DNA of 64,000 nt, from the NCBI GenBank assembly GCA_036496605.1, contig DASXKV010000062.1, positions 1 to 64,000 on the forward strand. Reading direction: 5' to 3'. Positions 13,600 through 64,000 of this stretch are shown in pieces. A program made the translations under genes and the position numbers. This DNA comes from Gemmatimonadaceae bacterium. GTDB lineage: Bacteria; Gemmatimonadota; Gemmatimonadetes; Gemmatimonadales; Gemmatimonadaceae. The notes under the pieces are model-generated. The model was not told the DNA's origin. It was given only the letters and a program-made list of their open reading frames with translations, and did not search any database. Positions within the stretch are counted from its first letter, which is position 1. Each line of letters begins with the position of its first letter.

Positions 13600-16041
<2,442 letters not shown>

Positions 16042-60736: not shown

Positions 60737-60992
60737 GGTCTCGTTGAGTATTCGTGAATCAACGCGTGGCATCGCTCACTGCCCGTGTCGACCATGACGT
60801 TCTCGACTTGCATCGTCGCGCCTGGGCGCGCGGGATGCTTGACGGCGATTGTCGTGCGGAAGATGCCCATGTCGTCGATCATATGTTGTCTCCGCCTGAG
60901 GCATTCATCGATTTCGTTTGCACGGTGCCCGATAGCCCCGGCCAGTGTGAGCCGGGACTATCGGACGACCGACCGCGAGATCCACGTCTCTG

Positions 60993-61511
60993 TTACTGTC
61001 CCGAGCTCTCACCCAGGGCGACGAGAAGCTCGTCCAGCTGATCGAACGTCTCGACCATTGCATCGGCTGCTCCGGTGCCGGCAGCGTCGAGCGCTTCCTT
61101 CGAAGGGTAGCTCTCGCGCAGTATCACCAGCGTCTTGCCGCCCTTTTCCTCGAAGGTCACCGTGGTGACAGGCCCGCTCTCGCCACCTTCGTCATTGGTC
61201 CACGCGAGGCGCGAATACGGCTTCACTTCGACATACGTGCCGAAAAACGCGGCAGGCTCGGGGCCACCGTGGTCGAATACCAATCGGTACTTGCCTCCGA
61301 CACGAGCATCCACCTCGCAGGACAGCAGGGTCATTCCCATCGACTGGGGCACCCACCAACGCTTGAGCAGCTCGGCCTTGGAAAACGCCTCGAACACGAT
61401 GCGCGCCGGGCCGTTGATGGTCCGCGTGACAACCACCTCGCGGTCCGACTTCCGTTCCACCGTGGTGCGGTTCTTCACGGGGCCGGGCTTACTTTCGATT
61501 CTTGCGTTCAT
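60993..61511 (-). CDS. SRPBCC / AHSA1-domain protein
   Basis: 172 residues from ATG 61511, with AGGAG 7 bases upstream. The START-like AHSA1 fold: REVVVTRTINGPARIVFEAFSKAELLKRWWVP, CEVDARVGGKYRLVFDHGGPEPAAFFGTYVEVKPYSRLAWTND, VTTVTFEEKGGKTLVILRESYPSKEALDAA, and the C-terminal helix DAMVETFDQLDELLVAL. These small-ligand-binding proteins often form two-gene operons with an ArsR repressor, as here: the ArsR gene's end overlaps this start by 23 bases. The ligand is unknown. Confidence 0.92.
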   Translation of the reverse strand: MNARIESKPGPVKNRTTVERKSDREVVVTRTINGPARIVFEAFSKAELLKRWWVPQSMGMTLLSCEVDARVGGKYRLVFDHGGPEPAAFFGTYVEVKPYSRLAWTNDEGGESGPVTTVTFEEKGGKTLVILRESYPSKEALDAAGTGAADAMVETFDQLDELLVALGESSGQ

Positions 61512-61842
61512 CGCTCTTCTCCTTTCGTGTGAGTTCCTCGACAACCTTGTTCAACTCATCGAAGCGTTCGTCCCACCGCTGGCGGTATCTCTCGAGCCAC
61601 GCCGTCTCTTCCTCCAATCGGCGCGGGCCCAGCTGGCACGTCCGCACGCGCCCGATCTTCTTCGTGGTGACGAGCCCCGCCTGCTCCAGAACGCCGACGT
61701 GCTTCTTCATGCCCGTGAGCGTCATGTGGAATTTCTCGGCAAGGTCCGTGATCGAAGCGTCGGCTCGTCCGAGCTGCTCCAGAACGCCACGCCGCGTGGC
61801 GTCGGAGAGCGCGGCGAACGAAGTATCAAGTCGGGTCGTCAT
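61489..61842 (-). CDS. ArsR-family repressor
   Basis: 117 residues: FAALSDATRRGVLEQLGRADASITDLAEKFHMTLTGMKKHVGVLEQAGLVTTKKIGRVRTCQLGPRRLEEETAWLERYRQRWDERFDEL. It has the winged helix with TLTGMKKHVGVLEQAG as recognition helix and no Cys metal site, so this is the subgroup linked to SRPBCC proteins and not a metal sensor. The ATG at 61842 directly follows a perfect 24-base palindrome, leaving no room for a normal leader. It probably represses itself and the SRPBCC gene that overlaps its 3' end. Confidence 0.93.
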   Translation of the reverse strand: MTTRLDTSFAALSDATRRGVLEQLGRADASITDLAEKFHMTLTGMKKHVGVLEQAGLVTTKKIGRVRTCQLGPRRLEEETAWLERYRQRWDERFDELNKVVEELTRKEKSDERKNRK

Positions 61843-61866
61843 ATACTGAACCGTATGGTTCAGTAT
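61843..61866. promoter_or_regulatory. Perfect operator abutting the ArsR start
   Basis: ATACTGAACC-N4-GGTTCAGTAT is a perfect 10-bp inverted repeat that ends directly at the minus-strand ATG of the ArsR gene. It likely binds the ArsR dimer. Since no RBS fits between, either the transcript is leaderless or the palindrome overlaps the promoter and 5' end. Confidence 0.75.
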
Positions 61867-61937
61867 TTAAGGCAAGCGTTCGCGGCATGCAAGGGGTGGC
61901 CGCGAAGAACGATGCGTCCTACACTTGCCGACGACCC

Positions 61938-63405
61938 ATGCGACATCACACGCTCACGCTCCCGACGCTCGCCCTGCTGCTGGCGAGCGCTGCCCAGGGA
62001 CAGACCGAGTACTACCGTCACTCGGTCTTCGACAACAGCCTCCTGCGCGACTTCTACTTCTACAGCTTCGCGCAGGCCACCGCGCCGAGCACGCTCGAAG
62101 CCCAGAACGCACGGTTGCCGGTGGACACTGTCCACTTCCTCTCGCCGCCTAACGCGCTGCGCATCCACTGGCAGTCGATGCCCGGCGGCGGCTGGGACGC
62201 CGAAGTGCACCTCGACAATTTCCGGAACCGCTCGCCGGGACTGTCGGGGCGCACGCTCTCCTTCTGGATCTATTCGCCAACAGCGATCTCCGCTGCCGAC
62301 CTGCCCAACCTCATGCTGTCGCAGGCGCGCGAGGGACTTCAGGTCGCGAAGTTCACCGCGCCCGAGCCACTCGGCCGCTTCACCGGCGGCGATCTGCCGG
62401 CGAACAAGTGGGTCGAGGTACGCGTGCCTATGACACCCCTGAACAGTGCGTCCGTCTATCCATTCATCCCGGAGCAGCTGCAGAGCGTCGTGTTCCTTCA
62501 GGGTCGCGCCGACGGGGCCGAGCACAGGTTGTTCGTGGATCAGGTGCATGTTGGCGACGAGCCGAAGACACTCGCGGCGTCCGCCCCCGTGCGCGTGACG
62601 GCGAAGAGATATGAGCGCCACGTCGTCGTGGAATGGGACGCCGGACGCTCCGAGCCCGCGGCACACTACGTCATCTACCGGTCGCAGGATGGCGGCGCGT
62701 ACCGCCCCATCGGGATTCAGGTGCCGGGCGTCCATCGCTTCGTCGATTGGCTGGGACGCACGGGAGCGACCGCACGTTATCGCGTCGCCGCAGCCGACTG
62801 GAGCAACCGCGAATCCGCGCCGTCGGCGCCCGCGACTGCGTCCACGCGCGCGATGAGCGACGACGAGCTCCTCACGATGCTTCAGGAAGCCGCCTTTCAT
62901 TACTACTGGGAAGGCGCCGATTCGAGCTCCGGCATGGCGCACGAGAACATGCCTGGCGACGACCGCATCGTCGCAACGGGAGCGAGCGGATTCGGGATCA
63001 TGGCGCTGCTCGCCGGCGTCGACCGCGGCTTCATCACGCGGGCGCAGGGTCTCGAGCGTCTCACGAAGATCGTGAACTTCCTTGGGGCAGCCGACCGGTA
63101 CCACGGCGAGTGGTCGCACTACATGAACGGCGCGACCGGTCACACGATGGCCGTCTTCGGCATGCTCCATCAACGCATCACTCGCCTATGGGAATCCGTC
63201 GAGTGGGACTGGTACCGCGACGCGACGCAGCAGCAGGGGGGGCCTTCATCTACTGGCACTGGTCGCCGAAGTGGGGATTCCAGATCACCCGCTGATCGGC
63301 TTCAACGAAGTGCATGTCGTCTACCTGCTGGCCATCGCGTCGCCGACGCACGGCGTCCCCGCGAGCACGTACTACTCGGGGTGGGCGAGCCAGGCGGTTT
63401 ATTGA
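61938..63405 (+). pseudogene. Glycoamylase-domain protein, frameshifted and deleted
   Basis: ATG 61938 starts a secreted protein (signal HTLTLPTLALLLASAAQG). An N-terminal carbohydrate-binding-like region (SVFDNSLLRDFYFYS...LRIHWQSMPGGGWDAEVHL) and a fibronectin-like segment (RVTAKRYERHVVVEWDAG) precede the glycoamylase domain (DDELLTMLQEAAFHYYWEGADSSSGMAHENM, VATGASGFGIMALLAGVDRGFITRAQGLERL). After TGHTMAVFGM about 60 residues are missing, then WESVEWDWYRDA resumes. A frameshift near 63235-63295 follows, and the end HPLIGFNEVHVVYLLAIASPTHGVPASTYYSGWASQAVY is in another frame, stopping at 63405. The product is not functional if the sequence is right. Confidence 0.8.
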
Positions 63406-63583
63406 TCCGTATGGGGACACGGCCTTTAACCAAGCTCAGATTCCCGTGTTGCTGGAGGAACTGAAGGCGCTGCGCATTCGCGAGCCGGATCCTGAAGTGG
63501 CCTCGGTTCTCAACGAAGTGTCCGTATTCGTCGAACGTGCGGTCGATCAGATCCACACGTACGTTCGATTCGTTGGCGACTGA
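63398..63583 (+). pseudogene. 5'-truncated small protein (DPYGDTxFN family)
   Basis: FIDPYGDTAFNQAQIPVLLEELKALRIREPDPEVASVLNEVSVFVERAVDQIHTYVRFVGD resembles a family of ~70-residue cassette-type hypothetical proteins; only the first residues and the start codon are missing. The frame is joined to the broken glycoamylase, so translation signals are lost. It lies directly before the attC-like site, the place of an integron cassette gene. Confidence 0.55.
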
Positions 63584-63599: not shown

Positions 63600-63695
63600 G
63601 GCTAACGAACGCTGAAGCGGACAAAGGGTTTATTGAATTGTGAAGCATGGCTTCACTCTTATGTGCCCCTTTGCGGCTTAGCTGGGGCGTTATAT
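63600..63695 (+). other. Integron attC-like recombination site
   Basis: The 5' end GGCTAACGAACGCTGAAGCG and the 3' end GCGGCTTAGCTGGGGCGTTA match the R''-L'' and L'-R' halves of attC sites such as those of aadA cassettes: GCTAACG pairs with CGTTA, AAGCG with the GGCTT side, and AAAGGG with CCCTTT. The centre forms a perfect GTGAAGC-ATG-GCTTCAC hairpin. Each core box differs from RYYYAAC and GTTRRRY at one base (GGCTAAC, GTTATAT). It lies between a small truncated gene and a toxin-antitoxin pair. No intI gene is in the window. Confidence 0.7.
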
Positions 63696-63761: not shown

Positions 63762-63965
63762 ATGGCTGATCAGCCCAACATCAAACCCGACGCCCGATTG
63801 CTCGTCGAGAGCCTCCCCGAGTCAGCGACCTGGGATGATCTGGCGTACGAGGTCTACGTCCGCCAGGCGATCGAGATGGGCCTCGCCGATACAGACGCCG
63901 GGCGAACCGTTGGCCACGACGAAGCGATGGTCCGCATTCGCAGTCGGATTCGCCGCGCGTCGTGA
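63762..63965 (+). CDS. Antitoxin of a RelE/ParE-type toxin-antitoxin pair
   Basis: 67 residues: MADQPNIKPDARLLVESLPESATWDDLAYEVYVRQAIEMGLADTDAGRTVGHDEAMVRIRSRIRRAS. The pattern LPExATWDDLxYExYVRQxIExGLAD with GRxVxHDE is that of small antitoxins paired with RelE/ParE toxins. Such antitoxins mask the toxin and repress their own operon. The TGA overlaps a GTG start (63962-63965) of the toxin gene. The pair follows the attC-like site directly, as is common for cassette-borne toxin-antitoxin genes. Confidence 0.8.
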   Translation: MADQPNIKPDARLLVESLPESATWDDLAYEVYVRQAIEMGLADTDAGRTVGHDEAMVRIRSRIRRAS

Positions 63966-64000
63966 GCCTCGAGCTCCGCTGGACGGAGCACGCCGTCAAT
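63962..64000 (+). CDS. RelE/ParE-family toxin, cut by window end
   Basis: From GTG 63962 the first residues are VSLELRWTEHAVN, the usual start of RelE/ParE-superfamily toxins (LRWTxxAxxDL). Only 13 codons are in the window. The identification rests on this start and on the overlapping antitoxin gene. Whether it is a ParE gyrase poison or an RelE mRNA interferase cannot be told. Confidence 0.7.
   Translation, partial: MSLELRWTEHAVN

Follow-up and report, generated by a model that had tools for sequence, protein, structure and literature searches.

The window, which is the whole 64,000-base stretch of DNA that we analysed, comprises bases 1-64000 of contig C62 (77,436 bases) in a 5.97-Mb draft genome of the Gemmatimonadaceae. 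The family assignment rests on relatives, one of which (G018) is a 99.7% match to a replicon of Gemmatirosa kalamazoonensis. At its right end, the 5' two-thirds of a secreted-protein gene, now a pseudogene, are followed by the remnant of a cassette ORF, an integron attC site (attC1), an antitoxin-like gene and the first 13 codons of a ParE-family toxin gene, the only toxin codons inside the window. The toxin gene runs on past the window end and is followed by a second site, attC2 (Table 1).

Table 1. Features of the C62 cluster and its left flank, and the integron integrase genes on other contigs of the same genome (positions without a contig name are those of the window)
Feature	Position	Strand	Basis
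Glucoamylase-like secreted protein gene, 5' two-thirds, pseudogene	61936-63396	+	DNA comparison with G006
Cassette ORF remnant, last 62 codons (FIDPYGDTAFNQ...HTYVRFVGD)	63397-63583	+	G091 homology; G006 junction comparison
attC1	63601-63694	+	Leave-out covariance model and bottom-strand fold
Antitoxin-like protein, 67 aa	63762-63965	+	ORF; first gene of the cassette
ParE-family toxin, 97 aa	63962 to C62:64255 (63962-64000 within the window)	+	PF05016
attC2	C62:64278-64368 (outside the window)		91.1 bits; covariance model includes this site
intI on C50	C50:76280-77215		TIGR02249, 361 bits
intI on C31	C31:12830-13738		TIGR02249, 343 bits

The attC site and its neighbouring gene pair

The layout of attC1 could be read directly from the sequence as TAACG(AAC)GCT-G-AAGC ... 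GCTTAGC(TGGGG)CGTTA, with an R'' box (TAACG, 63603-63607), an L'' box (GCT(G)AAGC, 63611-63618), an L' box (GCTTAGC) and an R' box (CGTTA) that ends at 63694. The R''-L'' and L'-R' arms pair, the R boxes carry AAC/GTT, and the variable stem includes a hairpin at 63640-63656. On the R''-L'' arm, the extrahelical positions, 63614 and about 63621, are unpaired (criterion: PMC2727003); the first of these is the top-strand G of L'', which is a C on the bottom strand.

An earlier note on this DNA, made by reading the letters, had claimed an attC layout with a foldable centre at 63600-63695 and had proposed a covariance-model search. To this end, we left attC1 out and built a model from seven further candidate sites in this genome, of which C62 contributes one and C50 and C31 three each. 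The search gave a strong match to attC1 along the whole model (62.6 bits), with an E-value of 3.5e-13 over 170 kb and of 1.2e-11 over the whole genome; these E-values are rough, reflecting a short calibration, yet the error is not large enough to overturn the match. The stems of the seven model sites carry a change on both sides in 8 of 19 pairs, with 12 compensatory cells compared to a shuffled mean of 4.7, and 89.5% of their cells are paired, compared to 81.1% after shuffling and 23-44% when the partner was slid. The foldable centre was borne out as well: folded as DNA, the bottom strand of attC1 reached -16.4 kcal/mol against a shuffled mean of -8.5 (z -3.5), and none of 200 shuffles was equally stable. 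In a two-half matrix search, using a matrix that included attC1, the site scored 55.4, whereas 1 Mb of random Markov sequence yielded no score above 21.8. An Rfam scan of the window returned nothing above threshold, which is uninformative about attC.

Might the palindrome nevertheless have arisen by chance, or be another kind of hairpin, such as a terminator or a repeat element? The hairpin at its centre, followed by a T-rich stretch, does score as terminator-like too, but we regard this explanation as extremely improbable: a model that had never seen attC1 finds it, the R and L boxes are present, as are two extrahelical positions, a second site follows with a correctly oriented gene pair between the two, and the attC-TA-attC unit recurs in a complete integron elsewhere. 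As for a palindrome of pure chance, the matrix search, the leave-out model and the comparison of the fold with its shuffles rule it out. Together, these data confirm attC1 as a genuine integron attC, which an integron integrase is predicted to recombine.

The stop of the antitoxin-like gene overlaps the start of the toxin gene, and both lie on the attC strand. That the next genes would be a RelE/ParE-type antitoxin and toxin had been suggested before, and the toxin could now be assigned to a family: it matches PF05016 (ParE_toxin) at 52.3 bits, with a cut-off of 23, and reaches 18.6 bits against TIGR02385 (RelE_StbE), under the cut-off of 27.9. The 67-aa protein has no Pfam or NCBIfam match, although membership in a known antitoxin family is not strictly defining, as antitoxins vary; its putative role follows from its position and size. 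The two genes between attC1 and attC2 form one complete cassette, with predicted toxin-antitoxin activity. A sigma-70 consensus scan, using a consensus that is uninformative for this phylum, found no promoter for the cassette.

We found the same unit in a relative of another genus (G016), where homologues of the 67-aa protein (79% identical) and of the toxin (67% identical) sit between two attC sites on contig C36, within an array that numbers about 15 sites and adjoins an intI gene. Over the whole attC-TA-attC unit, the two contigs share 70% DNA identity. For the 67-aa protein, identity with its G016 and G011 homologues is 79-82%; G011, which has this gene, has no toxin match at E 1e-12. With the same E-value as the limit, the toxin is matched in 23 of 179 family genomes, counting the present one; among the relatives' loci that were tested in addition to that of G016, a nearby attC was seen at only a few.

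Like the toxin-antitoxin cassettes of Vibrio superintegrons (PMC8618304, PMC11023631), the C62 pair is a two-gene unit that forms one cassette on the attC strand. Unlike them, it is not part of a large array, its antitoxin is of no known family, and the sigma-70 scan assigns it no promoter. By analogy with the Vibrio work, the pair may stabilise the array, as the earlier note had proposed. Collectively, these data support the interpretation of attC1 and its toxin-antitoxin neighbourhood as part of an integron cassette array.

Extent of the cluster and its left boundary

An array that continued past the window had been expected, with an intI gene and more attC sites to be sought downstream of 64000. 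This expectation held in part: attC2 lies 584 bases downstream of attC1, but the covariance-model search found no further attC between attC2 and the contig end at 77436, and a TIGR02249 (integron integrase) profile search with its cut-off of 265 bits found no integron integrase on C62. Both a significant covariance-model match and a further attC on the contig, whose absence the earlier note had named as speaking against its reading, were present. Elsewhere on C62, the same covariance-model search found no strong attC in the 63 kb upstream or the 13 kb downstream. Genome-wide, there are nine strong sites (at least 59.8 bits), two on C62, four on C31 and three on C50, with weaker ones below that score. 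We also noticed degenerate attC-like sequences at C62:64655-64800 and C18:48595-48720 (CCTAACGTCGGTTGCTGCTGCC... and GCCTAACGGGAGTTGCAGCAGACG...), perhaps decayed cassettes.

In the IntegronFinder definition, a cluster of attC sites lacking an integron integrase is a CALIN (PMC9024848). The C62 cluster fits this class, as it has two clustered attC sites and no TIGR02249 match on its contig; no intI gene adjoins the array, as one would in a complete integron, and the intI genes of this genome lie on other contigs. It shares with CALINs the presence of at least two sites, a low number of sites and the absence of a nearby intI, and differs in having a truncated leading cassette and in sharing its genome with two complete integrons, located on other contigs. 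We assign a probability of about 0.9 to the reading that the C62 cluster is a CALIN consisting of a truncated leading cassette with attC1 and a complete toxin-antitoxin cassette with attC2, served by an integrase in trans. The cluster may be inert, given the fused remnant at its left end and the broken leading cassette. It may also be distantly linked to an integron past the contig end, 13 kb downstream.

The left flank was compared with G006, which has an intact copy of the disrupted gene. The name glucoamylase-like is a tentative one; the tested part of the protein had no Pfam match. From 61936 to exactly 63396, the C62 copy is 88-94% identical to the intact gene at the DNA level, and the similarity then stops. 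The copy has also lost about 100 internal bases near 63168 and carries frameshifts of +5 and -4 near 63235-63285; these indels were read from a draft assembly and could be either real or assembly errors. The small cassette-like ORF that the earlier note had placed before attC1 proved to be the 3' portion of one: it is 37% identical to the C-terminal region of a G091 protein of 103 aa, but its 5' end was lost at 63396/63397, where it is fused to the pseudogene. The missing 3' third of the glucoamylase-like gene had no match in the genome, in a search run without a positive control, which points to a deletion, and not to insertion alone, as the event that made the junction.

This bears on the idea that an integrase acting in trans inserted the cassettes at an attG-like site inside the glucoamylase-like gene. 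The cluster directly abuts the gene, a GTT follows the junction (GGCG/GTTTATTG, with the slash at the junction), and IntI genes are present in the genome. However, the GTTTATT at the junction does not fit GTTRRRY, the cassette ORF there lacks its 5' end, and the unmatched 3' third again implicates a deletion, not insertion alone, so that we consider such an origin unlikely. Insertion into an intact glucoamylase-like gene as the sole event is ruled out by the unmatched 3' third, as far as that uncontrolled search goes.

In G006, an attC lies about 280 bases before the start of the intact gene (L086 1530-1620, 55.6 bits), and the glucoamylase-like gene may for this reason itself have travelled with cassettes. 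The G006 genome, rated 98% complete, has 25 attC matches in several clusters and no integron integrase at E 1e-60. To the left of the pseudogene, an SRPBCC-like and ArsR-like gene pair (window 60931-61919) is 86-95% identical in DNA to its counterparts in relatives from other genera, and the copy in G017 has no significant attC near it. In G001, of the same genus, the contig that matches this region begins inside it.

Integrases on other contigs and a possible history of the cluster

Two integron integrase genes, on C50 and C31, lie elsewhere in the genome (Table 1). Both are intact: their frames are open, their catalytic motifs are conserved in an alignment with relatives, and each has its own attC array behind it. 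The C31 IntI lacks seven residues from what is taken to be the integron-specific insert. Judged by sequence, either enzyme could act in trans on attC1 and attC2.

Integrases bind the folded bottom strand of attC and cut it in R' (PMC2727003, PMC11023631). On C62, the bottom strand of an attC, once single-stranded, would fold into a hairpin, whose extrahelical bases the IntI from C50 or C31 would recognise before cutting the R' box. Recombination between attC1 and attC2 would then release the toxin-antitoxin cassette in circular form, and recombination of attC2 with an attI would insert it elsewhere. Pairing the ParE toxin with an antitoxin that is less stable would favour cells that keep the cassette. 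The cluster may have come to its present place through an integrase or a rearrangement, and a deletion may later have trimmed its left side.

The origins listed for CALINs are off-target insertion, loss of intI and rearrangement (reviewed in PMC8618304). One alternative reading is that the C62 cluster is the distal end of the C50 or C31 integron, split off by a rearrangement or an assembly break, and not the product of off-target insertion. In its variable stem, attC2 is nearly identical to the site at 14917-15008 on C31. A deletion junction, and no clean insertion of attC at a GTT, marks the left boundary, and an integron array of G029 ends with a near-identical copy of the SRPBCC-like gene that neighbours the C62 cluster (window 60993-61544). 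On the other hand, 63 kb upstream and 13 kb downstream on C62 are free of any strong attC or intI, and attC stems are similar across the whole family. We consider this origin possible, but less likely than not.

Site and integrase features across the family

As a CALIN with a toxin-antitoxin cassette, attC1 and its cassette are ordinary; the base in L'' is more interesting than the cassette, as it is swapped lineage-wide. In a covariance-model alignment, the L'' extrahelical base was a top-strand G (bottom C) in 62 of 64 distinct family sites. Because the model had been trained on such sites, we repeated the count with this base left free. Of 55 distinct sites, 53 again had a top G (bottom C) and two an A. 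A second unpaired base stood at the N6 position in 53 of the 55, as a top A (bottom T) in 42. Two controls were run: reversed sequences yielded no site, and the class 1 aadA site, which matches 1,965 plasmid records at 99% or above, had a top C, the usual bottom G.

The L-box extrahelical base has been described as "almost exclusively a G", and earlier work credited it with strand choice (PMC2727003). As of 2011, the natural C example named was a single cassette, blaVIM-2, besides the C of attC-dfrA1 (PMC3053210), and earlier C sites were mainly tested as engineered mutants. Sites bearing C recombine with IntI1 and with other integrases (PMC2727003, PMC3053210), and the Gemmatimonadaceae variant should for that reason work. 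It resembles the T-N6-C attC of engineered attC-dfrA1 variants and natural blaVIM-2 (PMC3053210) in having a bottom T and C six bases apart, but here the C is the rule of a family and not a mutant or a single cassette. The taxon-specific attC models published so far cover 11 taxa, with Gemmatimonadota absent (PMC8352920).

The family also differs from the textbook in the orientation of its integrase genes. In canonical integrons, intI is divergent from the cassettes, whereas in all 12 Gemmatimonadaceae loci (71 listed attC) it lies on the cassette strand, with the attC sites downstream of its 3' end. The 12 loci, all the family contigs with both an intI match and a listed attC, are those on C50 and C31 of the present genome (G000) and on contigs of G002, G011, G016, G017, G018, G022, G023, G026, G029 and G031; at least two of the intI matches are partial, and the link is less sure in G023, where 15 kb separate intI from attC. 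Reversed integrons are known from Treponema, with intI transcribed toward attI and the cassettes (PMC3607928). They likewise have intI on the cassette strand and the array past its 3' end, but belong to another phylum, and within the single family examined here the layout holds at all 12 loci.

We consider it probable that the Gemmatimonadaceae represent a distinct integron lineage, attC1 included, which combines a reversed intI with T-N6-C attC sites and in which integrase and site are co-adapted. If so, a natural all-C lineage with reversed intI would offer a ready test of mutual adaptation between integrase and site. In the searchable literature, where our search was thin on subscription journals, we found no report of reversed intI or of a bottom-strand C in Gemmatimonadota, whose integrons are listed there but not described.

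The two complete integrons of the present genome showed some further features. On C50, an apparent insertion element lies between intI and the first attC (C50:77600-79650; L007 5600-7650) and contains a second tyrosine recombinase beside an IS91-like transposase, the latter named from a reading of the sequence. An IS110-like transposase frame, likewise named, is apparently inserted just behind that first attC (C50:80650-81810; L007 8650-9810). On C31, to judge from its translation, an apparent signal-peptidase-I-like cassette (C31:15056-15868; L026) lies between the attC sites at 14917-15008 and 15902-16000.
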